Of a DNA stretch of 64,000 nt, positions 3,007 to 60,791 are shown piece by piece. The stretch spans positions 1 through 64,000 of the forward strand of contig JAHITX010000001.1 of the NCBI GenBank assembly GCA_018817425.1, in the 5' to 3' direction. Source of the DNA: Pseudomonadota bacterium (GTDB lineage Bacteria; Desulfobacterota; Desulfobacteria; Desulfobacterales; RPRI01). Position numbers and translations under genes: made by a program. Every line of letters starts with the position of its first letter. Position 1 is the stretch's first letter. The notes under the pieces were generated by a model, which was given only the letters and a program-made list of their open reading frames with translations, had not been told where the DNA came from and did not search any database.

Positions 3007-3957
3007 TTATAATGATTCCACTAAATTTGTCATTTGGTCATAAAATTCCAGGATCTGATTTTTTTTGTCCGATTCCATGATGGCCATGGCGCTTCGGGGG
3101 TGTTGATTCAAAACACCGGTTATCATATACGGTACAAAGTATCCCCAATCGATTTTTTCCCGCCATGGGAATATATGTGATTCTATAGCCTCAATAATCG
3201 GACGGACATTAAACTTGGGATTTTTAAGAAATGAAATCAACAACTCCAGAGGGCAATTGCCGGCCCCACGGCCGATGCCGTAAAAGCTGCCATCTACGTA
3301 GTTGATGCCGTTTATAATAGACGAGATAGTATTTGCAAAGGCTAATTGTTGGTTATTATGAGTGTGAATCCCTATAGTTTTTCCGGGAAGACGCTCCATG
3401 TACTTGGCTGACAGTATATCAATATCTTCTGAGTAAAAAGCACCAAAGCTATCCACAAGATAAATAACAGGTACCCTGCTTTTCGAAAGATCATCTAAAG
3501 CTTCATTAAGCTCTCTCATGCCGACAGTGGAAACAGCCATAAGATTGATGGTTGCTTCAAAACCTTTTTCCATGCAGTGATGTGCAAGTTCTATTGCCGC
3601 GTCGATCTGATGCACATAGCAGGCGACCCGGACCATATCAAGCATGCTTTCCGATTTTAAAGGAATATCATCATAGTCAATCCTTCCGATATCTGCCATA
3701 GCGGATAGTTTAATTTTTCTTTCACCTTCACCGATAACCCGCCTTATATCTTTATCAGCACAAAGCCGCCATGGTCCGAACTTATCGCGGGGAAACGCAC
3801 TTTCTGAACTGAGGTAACCAACTTCCATATAATCAACGCCAGCCTTGGAATTGGCTTTGTAAACCGCCCGGACAAAATCATCCTCAAACTGCCATTTATT
3901 CATCAGCCCCCCGTCACGGACTGTACAATCCAACACCTTTATCTCAGGCCTAAACAT
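3007..3957 (-). CDS. HMGL-like aldolase catalytic-domain protein
   Basis: This protein of about 316 residues has a DRE-TIM metallolyase fold (HMGL-like, as in HMG-CoA lyase and 4-hydroxy-2-oxovalerate aldolase). The N-terminus carries DCTVRDGG, matching the metal-binding D-x-T-x-R-D-G motif. A later IHTHNN block supplies the two metal-ligand histidines. The start at 3957 is chosen because AAGGAG lies about 12 bases upstream (3969-3975); a longer ORF to 4008 would run into the KDPG aldolase gene. Relatives often occur in surface-polysaccharide clusters as aldolases of unknown substrate. Its position downstream of a KDPG-type aldolase and an AroB-type cyclase suggests a shared sugar or keto-acid pathway. 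That is inference; the exact reaction is unknown. Confidence 0.72.
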   Translation of the reverse strand: MFRPEIKVLDCTVRDGGLMNKWQFEDDFVRAVYKANSKAGVDYMEVGYLSSESAFPRDKFGPWRLCADKDIRRVIGEGERKIKLSAMADIGRIDYDDIPLKSESMLDMVRVACYVHQIDAAIELAHHCMEKGFEATINLMAVSTVGMRELNEALDDLSKSRVPVIYLVDSFGAFYSEDIDILSAKYMERLPGKTIGIHTHNNQQLAFANTISSIINGINYVDGSFYGIGRGAGNCPLELLISFLKNPKFNVRPIIEAIESHIFPWREKIDWGYFVPYMITGVLNQHPRSAMAIMESDKKNQILEFYDQMTNLVESL

Positions 3958-17421: not shown

Positions 17422-17793
17422 GATAAAAGAGGTATCTTTTTTATTTAATTGAAAAATTGCTGCAATGCAAAAATGTATATTTTGTGATTATTGCTCTGTC
17501 AAAAACTGAAATGGCGAAATATATATTTTGCAGTTTTTTGTGAGCTTACCAATTGTAAAACTATTGTAAAATTGCACAAAAGCTTTGCAACTAACCCTTT
17601 TTCCCTCTATAAATTAAAAATCTGAGTTCTTTGTATAACACATCTTTATCAACCTGTTACTGTGTCAGGTTCAAATATCAATCCTTACGATACTTAAATG
17701 TATTTCTGCGGTTAATTGGTACTTGGTCAAAGCTGTTCGTTTTTCAAAGGCCTTATTCTATCAGAATTAATTTCAAAGGAGTTTTTAATTAAT

Positions 17794-44932: not shown

Positions 44933-45175
44933 ATGCAAACTAAAATTCAAAAATGGGGAAATAGCCTTGCGTTACGAATTCCCAAATCATTCGCAATTGA
45001 TGCAAACCTGAGGCAAAATGAAACGGTAGATTTATCTATCGACAAGGAAAAGATTATTATTACTCTGATCGGGAAAAAAGAATATTCGCTCGATGAACTA
45101 TTAGAAGGTGTCTCGGAAAATAACATTCACAGCGAATTTGTTACAGGAGCCCCGATGGGGAAAGAAACATGGTAA
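44933..45175 (+). CDS. mazE: MazE-type antitoxin
   Basis: This 80-residue AbrB/MazE-family protein has an N-terminal swapped-hairpin DNA-binding domain (KIQKWGNSLALRIPKSF) and a flexible acidic C-terminus (SLDELLEGVSENNIHSEF, then GKETW) that in E. coli MazE wraps the toxin. It neutralises MazF and probably represses the operon with it. A strong GGAGGTG lies before the ATG. It overlaps mazF by 7 bases. Confidence 0.92.
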   Translation: MQTKIQKWGNSLALRIPKSFAIDANLRQNETVDLSIDKEKIIITLIGKKEYSLDELLEGVSENNIHSEFVTGAPMGKETW

Positions 45176-45522
45176 CAAATAGCGATTATGTTCCGGATAG
45201 GGGAGATGCCGTTTGGATAAACATGAATCCGCAAGCCGTTCATGAGCAAGCGGGAAGGCGTCCTGCTATAGTTTTGTCGCCGATTTCCTACAACCGTAAA
45301 GTCGGCCTTGCCTTATTTTGTCCGATAACTAACCAAATAAAAGGTTATCCTTTTGAAGTTAATATTCCTTCAGGTCTAAAAGTAACAGGTGCTGTTTTAT
45401 CCGATCAGGTTAAAAGTCTTGATTGGAAAATAAGGAATACGGAATTCTATGACAAAATCCCCGATATTGTTATTTTCGAAATATTAAAAAAACTTGGGGT
45501 GCTGCTACGTTTTGATAGTTAG
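45169..45522 (+). CDS. mazF: MazF-type endoribonuclease toxin
   Basis: This 117-residue toxin closely follows E. coli MazF: YVPDRGDAVWINMNP, EQAGRRPAIVLSPISYN with the catalytic Arg, CPITNQIKGYPFEV and ALSDQVKS-like VLSDQVKSLDW. MazF cleaves mRNA at short sequences (ACA in E. coli), causing growth arrest under stress or phage infection. The ATG lies inside the end of mazE. All catalytic positions I can place look intact. The module lies between two copies of a ~55-bp repeat. Confidence 0.93.
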   Translation: MVTNSDYVPDRGDAVWINMNPQAVHEQAGRRPAIVLSPISYNRKVGLALFCPITNQIKGYPFEVNIPSGLKVTGAVLSDQVKSLDWKIRNTEFYDKIPDIVIFEILKKLGVLLRFDS

Positions 45523-48562: not shown

Positions 48563-48704
48563 GAGCCAGTTTCAAAACGCCCCATTTTGGCCGATCTCTG
48601 CATTGGGCTCAAATTTAAATCCTCGAAATACTCAATGTATTACTGCTGTTGAAATTTTCTCCCGCCTTGAGCTTGACCAAACTGAAATGTTTTAAAAGTG
48701 GCTC
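48563..48704. repeat. 142-bp MITE-like element
   Basis: The element has imperfect terminal inverted repeats: GAGCCAGTTTCAAAAC at 48563-48578 and the complement of GAGCCACTTTTAAAAC at 48689-48704 (14 of 16). Its right 88 bases match 57085-57173 in the opposite orientation with about six differences. It encodes no protein. It lies between ruvC and cpoB. Confidence 0.7.
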
Positions 48705-48710
48705 ATTATT

Positions 48711-49685
48711 TTAAAATCCTTTCAGCTTGCTTTCAGCTGTTTTGGCTTCAATTGAATCAGGAAATTTTTCTACAAGTTGGTTTAAAATGAGTTTTGAAGT
48801 CTTTTTATCTCCAATATTGTAAAAGGAAAGACCCTGCTTTAGCAATGAAGCCTTCATTTTATTGCCTTTTGGGTATTTCTCTATAACTTTCTGATATTCA
48901 CCAATGGCTTTTTCATACCATTTTTCCCTGTAATAGCTTTCACCAATCCAGAACTGGCAATTATCAGCTATATCGGAATTCGGATATTTTTTCAGCATTT
49001 CCTGCAATTGTTCACGGGCTGCTGCATATTTCTCCTTATCATACAACTTAAGGGCGGAAGCATACATCTCGTTTTCAGGAATTTCCTGCTTTGTGTTCTC
49101 CGTTGTGTCGGTCTGCCCGGCAAGTGTTGTTTTTTCTTTTCCTTCTAAACTCAAATATTGATCAAGTTGCTTAAGCTTATTAGCAGATGCTTCCGTAGTC
49201 TGTTCAACCTTGGCAAGTCTGCTCTCAGCTATTTTAGCGGTTTCTTCGAGCGCATTTAATTTTTGGTTTAAAAGGTGCTCAAGCACCTCTACTCTTCCAT
49301 TTAATATCTGAATTTCTTCAGTATGCCTTTGGATATCGGCATATTGTTCGGCTGCTTGTCCTCTGATTTTATTTTCTTTTTCGGATTCGATATCTTTAAT
49401 CTCTTCCGTTTTCTTTTTTAGTCCATCCGTTTTGGAGTTAAGCTGGGAAGTCTGGTTTTCTAAAGTTACAACCCGCAGCCTTAGTTGTCCTACACGGTTA
49501 TCAAGCGTTAGAACGTCTTTATGCAAAGCACAGCCGAAATTATAAAATCCAAGAAGAACAAGAAGAACAACCAATTTCAAAATATGGCGTTTCCCTTTGC
49601 CGACAAATGGAAAAAAAGTAATTATTCGAGGAATCAAGGAATTTTTTCCTAATGGCCCTAAATTATTTATTGAGGCTTTTAGCAT
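48711..49685 (-). CDS. cpoB: Tol-Pal system coordinator CpoB/YbgF
   Basis: This 324-residue protein has an N-terminal hydrophobic segment (about 37-52) ending in YNFGC, a lipobox-like site. A long coiled coil (about 60-185) follows, then a TPR domain with three repeats (ALKLYDKEKYAAAREQL, AIGEYQKVIEKYPKGNK, ASLLKQGLSFYNIGDK). E. coli CpoB is periplasmic and links Tol-Pal constriction to peptidoglycan synthesis. Here the lipobox and the ~35 residues before the hydrophobic segment are unusual; a later start is possible. It is last in the tol-pal order. Confidence 0.88.
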   Translation of the reverse strand: MLKASINNLGPLGKNSLIPRIITFFPFVGKGKRHILKLVVLLVLLGFYNFGCALHKDVLTLDNRVGQLRLRVVTLENQTSQLNSKTDGLKKKTEEIKDIESEKENKIRGQAAEQYADIQRHTEEIQILNGRVEVLEHLLNQKLNALEETAKIAESRLAKVEQTTEASANKLKQLDQYLSLEGKEKTTLAGQTDTTENTKQEIPENEMYASALKLYDKEKYAAAREQLQEMLKKYPNSDIADNCQFWIGESYYREKWYEKAIGEYQKVIEKYPKGNKMKASLLKQGLSFYNIGDKKTSKLILNQLVEKFPDSIEAKTAESKLKGF

Positions 49686-53915: not shown

Positions 53916-54306
53916 AGAATTTACTCCGCTATATTGAGTATGTTTTGACAAAAATCAGATAGTTAATGGTAATCATTGAATTTATATTTTATATAGGCAA
54001 TATACTGCTGTGTCAATAATAAGTTATGAAACTGGCTCCATCGTATTTTATATAGTTGCTTTCTGTGTATCATATCTTAACAAAAGCATCTGCCTAAGGC
54101 AAGCCCGTTTGGCTAACAGCCCGTTTGGCGATTTTCAGTGAATGCAATTTTTAATAATCTAAACTATGACAAAGGATATAGGTTATCTTCGTATTCTTGA
54201 CAAGTTAAGCTATAGCCTTTAACGGATAATACTTGATTTAAAAACAATATTAATATAATTGCATGAATACTTAATACAATTTAAAAAAATGTGGAAATGT
54301 GAATAA
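53916..54306. other. Divergent intergenic region tolQ / TetR
   Basis: AT-rich spacer without a gene. It contains a 12-base direct repeat AGCCCGTTTGGC (54102-54113 and 54118-54129) and GAAACTGGCTC near 54028, an 11-mer also found at the end of the 142-bp repeat element. Promoters for tolQ and the TetR gene must lie here but none stands out. Confidence 0.45.
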
Positions 54307-57084: not shown

Positions 57085-57173
57085 GAGCCACTTTCAAAAC
57101 GTTTCAGTTTGTTCAAGCTCAAGGCGGGAGAAAATTTCAACAACAGGAATACATTGAGGATTTCGAGGATTTT
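57085..57173. repeat. Partial second copy of the 142-bp MITE-like element
   Basis: These 89 bases match 48617-48704 in opposite orientation with about six differences, including the terminal GAGCCACTTTCAAAAC and a GGCGGGAGAAAATTTCAAC core. Beyond 57173 the match stops, but AAATTTGAGCCC, the next piece of the full copy, recurs at 57358-57369, so this copy may be interrupted. Confidence 0.7.
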
Positions 57174-57243
57174 GTCTTTATTCATTTCTGTCATGATTTC
57201 AGCTGTGATTAGTAAATATATACTGGTTAAACAATACAACAAT

Positions 57244-57281
57244 AGGAATAGGAGGAAACCTTAATGCTTCCCCCTATTCCT
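57244..57281 (+). promoter_or_regulatory. Hairpin hiding a Shine-Dalgarno and start codon upstream of nhaA
   Basis: AGGAATAGGAGGAA (57244-57257) pairs with TTCCCCCTATTCCT (57268-57281) at 13 of 14 positions. The stem contains AGGAGG, and the 10-base loop holds an ATG (57264). That ATG opens a 31-codon frame ending at 57359, about 40 bases before nhaA. Confidence 0.5.
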
Positions 57282-57359
57282 CTTGTTAAATTTCCGCATA
57301 GCATTGTTTGCATAAGGAAAAATAATAAACTATATTTCCTTATAGAAATATTAATATAA
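57264..57359 (+). CDS. Possible 31-residue leader peptide before nhaA
   Basis: A small frame begins at ATG 57264 with an AGGAGG 7 bases upstream, the best ribosome binding site in this region, and ends at TAA 57357-57359. The peptide is hydrophobic with several basic residues. nhaA itself has a poor ribosome binding site, so coupling is possible. It may equally be chance. Confidence 0.3.
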   Translation: MLPPIPLVKFPHSIVCIRKNNKLYFLIEILI

Positions 57360-57400
57360 ATTTGAGCCCTTATCAACAGAGCAAGACAAAGCGCATTTCT

Positions 57401-58564
57401 ATGATAACCACCATTGAAACATTTTTAAAAAGACAATCATCGTCAGGCATGCTGCTGATTTTTTTCACTATTACTGCCCTGGCATTGCAAAACAGCGGCC
57501 TGTCTGATTTGTACAATGGATTTTTACATACGCATGTAGAAATTCGATTTGGTAATTTACAAATTGCCAAGCCCTTATTGCTCTGGGTAAATGATGGACT
57601 AATGGCGGTTTTTTTCTTTCTAATTGGGCTGGAGGTTAAAAGAGAATTTATTGAGGGTCATCTTTCCTCTCTAAGTCAGATCGCGTTACCAGGAATAGCA
57701 GCGCTCGGAGGAATGACGGTGCCTGCTCTGGTTTTCATTGCATTCAATCAAGGCGAGTCATTCGCAATGAAAGGCTGGGCAATACCAACCGCAACCGACA
57801 TTGCTTTTGCTTTGGGAGTTTTATCTCTATTAGGGAATAGAATTCCCGTCTCTTTAAAAGTATTTCTGTTAGCGTTGGCTATTATTGATGATTTAGGAGC
57901 TATCGTTATTATAGCACTGTTTTACACGGCTGACATATCTACAGTCTCTATAGTCATCGCTTCAATCGCTCTTACTACCTTGTTTACCATGAACAGAATG
58001 GGCGTAGCTAGTAAAGCGGCTTATATTTTGCTCGGCATCGTGCTTTGGGTTAGCGTATTAAAATCAGGCGTTCATGCAACTCTATCAGGTGTCGCATTAG
58101 CCTTTATGATTCCTTTGAACTGTATAGGCAGAGACGGTAAAGTCTTTTCTATGAGCAAAGAAATGGAGTATGGTTTACATTATTGGGTAGCCTTTATGAT
58201 ATTGCCCCTTTTTGCTTTTGTTAATGCAGGTGTTGATTTAAGAGGGATTTCTTTTGAGGAAATGCTAAATCCTGTCCCTATGGGAATTATGATTGGATTA
58301 TTTATCGGTAAACAGTTGGGGGTTTTTAGTTTTAGTTGGCTTGCTATCAAATCAGGATTCGCAAGCTTGCCCAAAGATAGTAGCTGGAATCAACTGTATG
58401 GTGTATCCATTCTTACCGGTATCGGATTTACCATGAGTTTATTTGTTGACACGTTGGCTTATGATGATAATCAGATTTATCACTATGCAGATAAACTAGC
58501 CATTCTCCTGGGTTCATTTATGTCTGGTATCGTTGGTTATTATGTTTTAAAAAGCTCGAAGTAG
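57401..58564 (+). CDS. nhaA: Na+/H+ antiporter NhaA
   Basis: This 387-residue inner-membrane antiporter has about 12 helices and exports sodium in exchange for protons. It follows E. coli NhaA closely: LLWVNDGLMAVFFFLIGLEVKRE, GWAIPTATDIAFALGVLSLLG, the essential Asp-Asp pair in AIIDDLGAIVIIALFY, VLKSGVHATLSGV and TGIGFTMSLFV. The start at 57401 gives the usual N-terminus; a TTG start at 57362 is less likely. It stands alone. The close match to gammaproteobacterial sequence may reflect transfer. Sodium tolerance fits a marine or sediment organism. Confidence 0.94.
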   Translation: MITTIETFLKRQSSSGMLLIFFTITALALQNSGLSDLYNGFLHTHVEIRFGNLQIAKPLLLWVNDGLMAVFFFLIGLEVKREFIEGHLSSLSQIALPGIAALGGMTVPALVFIAFNQGESFAMKGWAIPTATDIAFALGVLSLLGNRIPVSLKVFLLALAIIDDLGAIVIIALFYTADISTVSIVIASIALTTLFTMNRMGVASKAAYILLGIVLWVSVLKSGVHATLSGVALAFMIPLNCIGRDGKVFSMSKEMEYGLHYWVAFMILPLFAFVNAGVDLRGISFEEMLNPVPMGIMIGLFIGKQLGVFSFSWLAIKSGFASLPKDSSWNQLYGVSILTGIGFTMSLFVDTLAYDDNQIYHYADKLAILLGSFMSGIVGYYVLKSSK

Positions 58565-58804
58565 TTCCTTGAAAAAGCTCCGGTTGTGCCTTCACTTTGA
58601 AAATCTGCATATTGCGACGTTAGCTTCCATAGCGTATAGATACCATAACGTTTAAAAGTTATAATGTCGATAAACACTTTTGGCGGTGATATTATGGCAA
58701 CTGCTACAAAACGTGCCACGATTTATTGAGACCCAGTTTTACATAAAGCTTTGAAATTGAATAAAACAAATTAGCTATGCGGAATTTTGTTTTTATAAGA
58801 CGAA

Positions 58805-58834
58805 AAAAGGCTGGTTGTATTTTACCAGCCTTTT
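58805..58834. terminator. Terminator of tRNA-Ala (and plus-strand transcripts)
   Basis: AAAAGGCTGGT (58805-58815) pairs exactly with ACCAGCCTTTT (58824-58834). On the minus strand the stem is followed by a T run (58803-58808), placing it about 30 bases downstream of tRNA-Ala. On the plus strand it is followed by CTTTTTT, so it can work both ways. The rest of the gap 58565-58865 shows no gene; GAAACTGGCTC at 58843-58853 matches the end of the MITE-like element. Confidence 0.78.
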
Positions 58835-58865
58835 CTTTTTTGAAACTGGCTCTAATAGTTTTATT

Positions 58866-58941
58866 TGGTGGAGATGAGGAGGTTCGAACTCCTGGCCTCA
58901 GCATTGCGAACGCTGCGCTCTCCCAACTGAGCTACATCCCC
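58866..58941 (-). tRNA. tRNA-Ala (anticodon CGC)
   Basis: This 76-base gene on the minus strand has acceptor GGGGATG/CATCTCC, discriminator A and encoded CCA. The D arm contains AGCTCAGTTGGGAGAGC, the anticodon arm is CAGCG-TTCGCAA-TGCTG, and the T arm is AGGAG-TTCGAAC-CTCCT. The anticodon CGC reads GCG alanine codons. All four stems pair well. Confidence 0.95.
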
Positions 58942-59060
58942 ACGTTAATATTTTAATACCAAATTAAAAAAATCCGGTCAATTTAAAATTTAATTTTATG
59001 TTTAAGCTGTATAATGTTAAAGGGGGCAATGTAGATTATTCCAAACGGAGGATTTTTAAA

Positions 59061-60791
59061 ATGAGTTATGAAATTATTCTAAATGATGCTTTCAAGCGTT
59101 TTACACTTGATCAGGACAAAATCAAAACACCGGAAGAAACCGTAAATAGCTTTAAAGAAACGCTTAAAGAACTTGATCTTGATATTCTTGAAAGCACTTC
59201 ACGAATAGATAATGGCAGGCTGAAAATTCCCGTTTATTTCAGCGTATGTGGTAAAGATGCTTCAAATATTACCGGAACAAAAAAGCAGATGGGAAAAGGC
59301 GCAACTCCTTCACAAGCCGAAGCAAGTGCTGTAATGGAACTTGCAGAAAGATTCAGCTTTTTTTCTTTTTGCCAAAACCCCGATAATTTTTTCTATGAAA
59401 AACCTGCTAATATAAATTATAACGCAATCTCTTTTGAGATGATTGCAAAATCTGTTCATGACTCTTCGGATGATTTAAAAATAACAAAAAATATATATGA
59501 TAACCTGACGCTTAAATGGACATGGGCATATAACCTGACAAAAAAAGAATCGGTGCTTATTCCCTTTAACTGGTTTTATATGATTAATGAATTCAACGGT
59601 CCATCCGCCGGAAATTGTGTGGAAGAGGCATTGAGTCAGGGAATTTGTGAAATTGTTGAGCGGCACGTTTCATCACTAATCAGCATAAATAAACTTAAAG
59701 TTCCTTTAATTAATCCTGATTCAGCAACAGATCCAATGGTAGTTGAAATGATAGAAAAATACCGTGCCGCGGGAATTAAACTATATATTTCGGACTTTTC
59801 TTTAGGACTCGGAATACCCACCGTAGCTGTTCTTGCTTATGATCCATCAACCTTTCCCGAAAAAAGTGAAATTGTGTGGACAGCAGGAACCACACCTGAC
59901 CCTCAAAAGGCTTTAAGCAGGGCTCTTACGGAAGTAGCCCAGCTTGCCGGAGATTTTAATACATCCTCAAATTATGTTGCCAGCGGACTTCCAAAATTTA
60001 CTGATCTCGACAATGCACGGTTTGTAATGGAAGCAGAACCAGTTATTGATATTGACAACCTCCCGGATATTTCCAGCAATAATATAAAAGTAGAAGTAGA
60101 AAACCTGATTTCATCGCTTTACGCAAACGATATGGAAGTAATAGTTATAAACACCATGCATCCCAAGCTTAAGATTCCTGCATTTTACACCATAGTGCCG
60201 GGCGCTCATTTCAGGGAAAGAGCTGCAAGTGCAAGTACCGGTTTGTTCTGCGCAAAAATCATTATTGAAAATTATGAACCCGAAAATGCTCTTTATGAGT
60301 TAATGCAAATGGATCAGATGCTTGCCGGAAAATATTACATAAAGTTTTATATAGGCCAGTCTTATCTTTTGTTAAATGATCCCGGCTCGGCATTACCTTA
60401 TTTTAAACAGGCTCTTGAGTTAGACCCGTCAAAACAGGATATTTCCAGCATATATTCTTATCTTGGTGTATGTCTTAAAGAAATGGGGGAATACCGGCAG
60501 GCGATTTCCATGCTAAAAGAAGGTGAAAAATATGACAATGAAAGAACAGACATTTTCAACCTGATGGGATTTTGTCACTTCATGCTTAAAGAACATGAAA
60601 TGGCTATCGAAAATTTTATGAAAGTTATAAAATTAGATCCGGCCTCTGCAATAGATTATGCAAATATAGCTTCAAATTACCGCGATATGGGAGAAAAAGA
60701 AAAAGCAATATACTATTACAAAACAGCTATCGAACTTGACCCTTCAATAGAATTTGCAAAAACCAATTTAAGTAAACTGCTACAAGCATAA
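59061..60791 (+). CDS. YcaO-domain protein with C-terminal TPR repeats
   Basis: This 576-residue protein has a YcaO domain (about 20-380), an ATP-dependent enzyme that activates amide backbones. The ATP/Mg-binding acidic residues are visible: Glu87, Glu93 and Glu96 in the EASAVMELAER block, and Glu188-Glu200 with Arg201 in VEEALSQGICEIVERH. From about 400 to the end lie TPR repeats (YLGVCLKEMGEYRQAISML, LMGFCHFMLKEHEMAIENF). The start at 59061 has GGAGG upstream; the in-frame ATG at 58998 lacks it. No precursor peptide, cyclodehydratase partner or TfuA lies beside it, so it is more likely a YcaO of the E. coli type, linked to RimO methylthiolation of ribosomal S12, than a peptide natural-product enzyme. 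That is inference. Confidence 0.82.
   Translation: MSYEIILNDAFKRFTLDQDKIKTPEETVNSFKETLKELDLDILESTSRIDNGRLKIPVYFSVCGKDASNITGTKKQMGKGATPSQAEASAVMELAERFSFFSFCQNPDNFFYEKPANINYNAISFEMIAKSVHDSSDDLKITKNIYDNLTLKWTWAYNLTKKESVLIPFNWFYMINEFNGPSAGNCVEEALSQGICEIVERHVSSLISINKLKVPLINPDSATDPMVVEMIEKYRAAGIKLYISDFSLGLGIPTVAVLAYDPSTFPEKSEIVWTAGTTPDPQKALSRALTEVAQLAGDFNTSSNYVASGLPKFTDLDNARFVMEAEPVIDIDNLPDISSNNIKVEVENLISSLYANDMEVIVINTMHPKLKIPAFYTIVPGAHFRERAASASTGLFCAKIIIENYEPENALYELMQMDQMLAGKYYIKFYIGQSYLLLNDPGSALPYFKQALELDPSKQDISSIYSYLGVCLKEMGEYRQAISMLKEGEKYDNERTDIFNLMGFCHFMLKEHEMAIENFMKVIKLDPASAIDYANIASNYRDMGEKEKAIYYYKTAIELDPSIEFAKTNLSKLLQA

Follow-up and report, generated by a model that had tools for sequence, protein, structure and literature searches.

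A 142-bp sequence with inverted repeats at its ends lies beside ruvC in the 64,000-nucleotide stretch of DNA analysed here (the window), and a first-pass annotation had taken it for one of a MITE-like family with GAGCCA termini. We asked what kind of element this is, how far its family extends, and what accounts for its movement and its conservation.

Copies in the window and in the genome

The element lies between two minus-strand genes, with the start of ruvC (48527) on one side and the end of a tol/pal-type TPR gene (48711–49685) on the other, gene identities being judged from sequence. Direct comparison of the ends bore out the terminal inverted repeats (Table 1). A partial copy in inverse orientation near 57.1 kb, with about six differences in 88 bases, had also been proposed; indeed, 57085–57172 on the minus strand matched the right part of the element over 88 bp with 6 differences (93% over 89 nt in a separate search), and 57085–57184 matched the covariance model with E 1.2e-10. 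The terminal 11-mer GAAACTGGCTC occurred exactly three times in the window, once inside the element and alone at 54028–54038 and 58842–58852, the last one base from the position first given. The excess over chance reported for this 11-mer held up, in that two occurrences outside the two copies compare with 0.027 expected and, with one mismatch permitted, five were observed against a shuffled mean of 1.04 (equalled in 1 of 100 shuffles). Judged by sequence, the lone ends at 54028–54038 and 58838–58852 are probably remnants of eroded copies. The window carries two end classes, GAGCC and, in the eroded copy at 17624–17754, GAGACC. We considered and rejected nhaA (57085–58852) as the passenger of a composite transposon, because no matching target duplication is present between the 57085 and 58838–58852 ends, which are thus two unrelated remnants.

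Table 1 Positions of the element, its parts and its relatives in the window
Feature	Position	Strand	Basis
Complete GAGCC-class element, 142 bp	48563–48704	+	cmsearch E 9.1e-28
Left terminal inverted repeat GAGCCAGTTTCAAAAC	48563–48578	+	14/16 complementary to right end
Right terminal inverted repeat GAGCCACTTTTAAAAC, read inwards	48689–48704	-	14/16 match with left end
Conserved core hairpin, 15 pairs, three helices	48605–48663	+	Alignment A1 columns 45–104; placed by covariance-model search
Truncated GAGCC-class copy, right part only	57085–57172	-	6 differences/88
Eroded copy, GAGACC-type ends GAGTTCTTTGTATAAC ... CAAAGGCCTT	17624–17754	+	Covariance-model search, E 1.8e-9
Solitary 11-bp end, probable remnant	54028–54038	+	11-mer match; length too small for proof
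Solitary 15-bp end, probable remnant	58838–58852	+	Contains the 11-mer at 58842–58852

The first-pass annotation held that a total of two copies in the genome would count against it, and this is not the case. In the 5.12-Mb genome to which the window belongs (the own genome), the end pattern was matched 204 times on one strand and 216 times on the other (420 in all), against 0 and 1 for a reversed control, a count that corresponds to about 200 copies. With the element as query, and 40 of 296 candidates scored, at least 41 matches were obtained, 40 of the 41 having 91–100% identity over almost the whole element. Among the 100 ends listed, 66 were paired and 34 unpaired (five of the latter at contig starts), with pair lengths of 142 bp (22), 143 (6), 164 (2), 165 (1) and 188 (2); ten shorter pairs, of 66–141 bp, were seen among all loci examined. 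The element, mostly 142–188 bp long, is thus below the size of a transposase, and 142 is no multiple of three, as befits a MITE without coding capacity. Longer forms gain segments in steps of about 22–23 bp (142, 165, 188). At L033, L042, L045 and loci of KR11 (genome G006, a sister genome of the same genus), the 164–166- and 188-bp forms contain added GCACTTTAGTGAAGCTTTAGCGCTA-like segments next to the hairpin. Copies are mostly intergenic, 19 of 217 lying within ORFs called by a simple ORF caller. The repeat breaks the assembly of the own genome at some copies; contigs C20, C35, C40, C41, C52, C81 and C87 of G000 begin in a copy, and C63, C85 and C87 end in one.

In duplication counts for which element pairs were located by their ends alone, an exact 4-bp duplication flanked 25 of 41 GAGCC pairs in the own genome (the other 16 were without one), 70 of 86 in KR11 and 21 of 41 in other genomes, against shuffled means of 1.25, 1.75 and 0.86, respectively. 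The duplicated sequences of this class are varied and A/T-rich. The window copy has no exact adjoining duplication, ATTATT being present on both sides with an offset of one base.

Sites lacking the element were also found. One KR11 copy is flanked by CCTT; the matching sequence occurs at two places of the own genome, with a single CCTT and no element in each. The site of the window copy is closed, with the element absent, in all nine genus mates whose ruvC locus was compared; in the comparison of 30 ruvC loci, the core match was absent from the other 29. Places with both flanks in the own genome and in KR11 numbered six (3 of 40 own GAGCC elements with both flanks in KR11 loci; 2 of 81 KR11 elements, at 3 places, in own loci), and none holds the element in both genomes. 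Apart from the two CCTT places, these have ragged junctions or other sequence, two of them holding 94 and 165 bp of unmatched sequence. Near 3766–3947 of L188 in KR11, about 165 bp of non-element sequence stands where the own genome carries the MITE L028. Since exact duplications and empty sites both occur, transposition in this family is ongoing or recent; and because the family has many copies, exact 4-bp duplications and empty sites, the sequence at 48563–48704 is a MITE, that is, a non-autonomous DNA transposon, without a protein. This much of the original proposal stood. Its definition of the family by GAGCCA ends proved too narrow, GAGCCA being one of several end types on a shared core.

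A shared core with several end classes

The window element was matched in 52 of 96 relatives, often from its position 8 and only as far as 119 or 136. Inspection of the sequences indicated that matches stop short of the element ends because the core is the same and the ends differ. In particular, a core of about 100 bp lies between different ends of about 16 bp that are alike on both sides. The end classes are GAGCC, with the motif GAGCC[A/G].TTTCAAAA; GAGACCTTTGCA; GTGTCCATCC and GTGCCTGAACG; GAGCATGTTTGA; GGGTACCTTGA; and single cases including GTTCCCGTAGA and TATAAGCCATTT. Among 149 distinct cores, 69 bore GAGACC, 43 GAGCC, 8 GGGTACC, 7 GTGTCC, 3 GTGCCTGAACG and 2 GAGCATG ends, and 17 were unclassified. 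Classes can occur together. Besides its roughly 200 GAGCC copies, the own genome carries GAGACC-type ones at C103:2650, with the duplication GATTA, and at C93:41707, and L066 of G045 has three end classes inside 1.5 kb.

The length of the target duplication tracks the end class, with 4 bp for GAGCC, 5 bp for GAGACC and TANNTA for the GTGTCC type. Of the 73 GAGACC pairs, 36 had a 5-bp duplication, against a shuffled mean of 0.78, and 37 lacked one; a 4-bp duplication was seen in 2. Of 12 GTGTCC-type rows, 3 were flanked by TANNTA and 7 had TA at each side; the 12 may include chance pairings. Two GTGCCTGAACG copies had duplications, TAGATA and TACTTA, both of the form TANNTA, and the two GAGCATG copies had TAA and TTA.

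Comparison of pairs of 142-nt elements gave a measure of how cores and ends diverge. The closest GAGACC/GAGCC pair had 2 differences in 94 core positions and 11 in 32 end positions, and a GAGACC/GTGTCC pair had 4 and 15, respectively. For pairs with at most 3 core differences, the mean number of end differences was 10.2 between classes (5 pairs) and 1.5 within a class (68 pairs); because classes are defined by their ends, only the near-identity of the cores is informative in the between-class pairs. Within one class, core and ends diverge at similar rates, so that constraint on the core does not clearly exceed that on the ends of the class to which it belongs.

Core matches were found in 246 of 389 genomes and 94 of 150 genera of the order. 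A sample of 395 genomes from the phylum gave 47 with a match, of which 38 lie outside the order. Carriers include MAGs named Desulfosudis and Desulfonema, names that make Desulfobacterota the most probable phylum, as well as a 4.07-Mb contig of G057. The best matches listed, from different genera, were about 91–97% identical to the consensus and weaker ones ranged down to about 75%; RuvC proteins of other families share only 50–70% identity with the RuvC of the window. As far as sequence can tell, the high identity of the core across genera may reflect either constraint on it or its recent movement between genera. The plasmids and phages searched gave no match to the element, and a 34-nt core pattern had no exact counterpart in viral contigs.

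Folding, which the first-pass annotation had put forward as a check, revealed a conserved hairpin with covariation in the core. We used an alignment (A1) of 48 of 58 selected elements, from which L266 and L097 (two overlapping elements each), the long variant L033, L381, L202 and the second copies of L280, L383 and L218 were left out; some rows were cut back to 142 nt, and the ends of L290, L240 and L220 are doubtful. RNAalifold proposed 15 pairs in the core, 10 of them with double changes. Double-change cells numbered 50; shuffled controls gave 9.1 (s.d. 2.4) and slid controls no more than 16. Of all cells, 96.4% were paired. Counts of this kind can be raised by relatedness and by template switching. 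Conservation was 1.51 bits per column in the core versus 0.80 and 0.79 at the ends. Within the core, unpaired columns (1.49 bits) are nearly as conserved as paired ones (1.57 bits), an indication that sequence, too, is under constraint.

Candidate transposases and known systems

Among the loci sampled, we found no transposase with matching ends of the kind that the first-pass annotation had suggested looking for: 1.76 Mb of partly overlapping loci contained no GAGCC-ended transposon with a transposase. A scan for GAGCC...GGCTC around an ORF, at 14/18 or at 12/18 plus a 4-bp duplication, yielded 22 GAGCC pairs, none with a duplication and mostly neighbouring MITEs. GAGCC ends were likewise absent beside PF01609, PF07592, PF05598 and PF13751 transposases in about 30 loci per search and a few further stretches, a subset of the matches; PF01609 itself had only five weak matches in the own genome. 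Candidates rejected as partners were the ISAzo13-type (PF07592) loci examined, which have other ends; the DUF772/PF13751 elements examined, which also have other ends, for example GATGGTCTCGTAAAAA with 6 bp; and a decayed PF13751 fragment 0.9 kb from the copy at C131:27859, around which GAGCC ends are absent. In this sample, then, the ends match those of no autonomous transposon. MITEs without a known partner exist, and the missing partner thus weakens only the assignment to a transposase family. The GAGCC transposase may have been lost, may lie in an assembly gap, or may belong to a family outside the sample.

Insertion sequences (ISs) with DUF772 transposases, which we take to be IS1182- and IS5-like, may represent the kind of partner involved. 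In these genomes they have GAG, GTA, GGG or GAT ends and 5–6-bp duplications, and the GAGCC end of the window copy is absent from all those examined. In G057, a 1,645-bp DUF772 IS is flanked by 6-bp duplications at 16 of its 17 copies, and 15 of these read TANNTA, the target motif also of the GTGTCC-type MITEs; it is alike in behaviour and not a partner, because its ends (GTATCCGCTGAATTTC) differ. A DUF772/DDE_Tnp_1_6 IS of G011 has the ends GAGACTGTCGAAAAAG, which agree with GAGACCTTTGAAAAAT at 12 of 16 end positions, and a 5-bp duplication (ATATT), the length found with GAGACC MITEs. Separately, PF13751 elements with ends like AG.CTGT.GAAAAA in three genomes (L466, L469 and L471) are all flanked by CAACG (CGTTG in L468), a pattern suggestive of insertion at one fixed target. 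Another IS, about 1.9 kb long (L451, L486–L493 and L500), recurs in the order, with one copy in the own genome; its ends resemble GATGG..TCGTAAAAA, and its duplications are mostly A/T-rich and 6 bp long.

MITEs are usually tied by their ends to one IS and are normally read as shrunken copies of a single transposon. The window family is a true MITE family and ordinary in kind; what sets it apart is that a single conserved, structured core is combined with several end classes and with duplications of different lengths. IS630-type elements insert at TA, which is duplicated, and the GAGCC and GAGACC classes do not have this target. Prokaryotic MITEs, as the accounts cited describe them, are gene-free elements of 50–500 bp, mostly intergenic and hairpin-forming, with terminal inverted repeats and target duplications (PMC10969869, PMC2229807), and the window family shares their size, repeats, duplications, placement and hairpin. 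Correia elements and RUP are described as small IS630-related bacterial MITEs (PMC2817692). They differ from the window family, whose ends are of GAG or GTG type and whose duplications measure 4, 5 or 6 bp. ERIC is an imperfect palindrome for which we know of no core with exchangeable ends. ERIC/RU-1, which the cited sources give as 127 bp long with many intergenic copies in enterobacteria (PMC2229807, PMC2759123), resembles the window family in length and in its many intergenic copies. REP/BIME sequences, too, are abundant intergenic palindromes, moved by RAYT through IS200/IS605-type transposition without larger target duplications according to the source cited (PMC2817692), with REPs given as 20–40 bp (PMC3733652); the window family, in contrast, leaves exact duplications.

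Origin of the ends and of the core

The best explanation, and in our judgement a probable one, is that the family is one Desulfobacterota MITE lineage with separable core and end modules, in which we infer mobilization in trans by several DDE transposases and exchange or re-evolution of the ends on a persisting core. A DDE transposase would bind and cut in trans the roughly 16 bp at each side, pair the two ends, excise the element and insert it into an A/T-rich target, producing a duplication of 4, 5 or 6 bp according to class (4 bp for GAGCC). The core of about 100 bp, with its covarying hairpin and conserved unpaired stretches, would be retained as the ends change. Where ends are definable, total length is near 142 bp (mostly 140–146) across end classes, a constancy that may help ends so close together to pair. 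In this genome the GAGCC-ended lineage would have multiplied to about 200 copies, most of them intergenic, and its transposase would now be missing or unrecognized.

A serious rival, given a poorly supported core tree and the existence of intermediate forms, is that this is an ordinary MITE lineage in which both ends drifted together, in small steps, with shifts in the specificity of related transposases, the core being merely inherited and no modules exchanged; we think this rather unlikely. The length stays near 142 where ends are definable, GAGCC and GAGACC ends have 13 of 17 positions in common, and some ends look intermediate (GAACCCTTTGGAAAAC, GAGCCTCTTGCAAAAC and CAGCCCGCTTTAAAAC), which favours gradual change over a swap. 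End labels also cluster on the core tree (149 cores, 98 columns), in which at least 15 label changes are needed among the six named classes, the 17 cores with unclassified ends being excluded from this count; few branches are supported, 90 of 146 inner branches being open, so that the number of end changes is uncertain. Against stepwise drift, cores only 2–4 differences in 94 apart can already bear ends 9–15 differences in 32 apart, the duplication length shifts with the end class, and GTGTCC-type and GTGCCTGAACG ends have little in common with GAG ends. The reading that the repeat is a chance palindrome or an assembly artefact is already refuted: several contigs start or stop inside a copy, but such breaks are normal assembler behaviour at repeats, and the target duplications, the empty sites, the phylum-wide core and its presence on the 4.07-Mb contig contradict it.

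The remaining alternatives concern the core. Paired changes can arise, according to the account cited, by template switching in quasi-palindromes (PMC8794818), which would copy one arm onto the other and yield covariation with no selection on structure. That the whole element is an imperfect palindrome folding on both strands fits this idea, yet template switching should erase non-complementary stretches, and those in the hairpin are conserved (1.77 bits at columns 61–67, 1.37 at 82–88); we regard a mutational origin as unlikely. It is more doubtful still that the host keeps the core for a function as RNA or as a cis-regulatory element, with transposition only its means of spread, a reading that we consider improbable. 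The covarying hairpin, the conserved unpaired columns and a nearly invariant U-G pair (47 of 48) speak for it, as does the orientation of copies in other genomes, where 36 are opposite to tandem flanking genes and 18 on the same strand. However, there is no such lean in the own genome (11 opposite, 12 same) or in KR11 (20 and 26), and a regulatory role inferred from gene context was rejected for want of a common lean across these sets. Moreover, insertion sites are not shared in the places compared, namely the nine genus mates that lack the window copy and the six own/KR11 places, and no Rfam family exceeded the gathering threshold.

A further possibility, which we raise tentatively, is that selection maintains the core as a structured mobile module in its own right, either a DNA or an RNA hairpin, and that this module has lasted throughout the phylum by repeatedly gaining the ends of different transposons. 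The core would then define the element, and the length of about 142 bp with its steps of about 23 bp (142, 165, 188) would represent a spacing rule for the pairing of ends. A core that outlives its ends, with duplications changing along with them, would be direct evidence that non-autonomous elements are able to switch transposase, and would supply many natural before/after pairs for the study of end change. A search of open-licence papers found no description of the family or its core, a weak negative, and a very frequent repeat, with about 200 copies and contigs broken at some of them, is thus undescribed in the papers searched and absent from Rfam.

Elsewhere in the window, a small ORF at 45169–45522 may encode a MazF/PemK-type toxin, which its sequence resembles. 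A tRNA gene at 58869–58941 adjoins the ORF at 58998–60791, whose product we take, from its appearance, to be a YcaO-like protein fused to TPR repeats.
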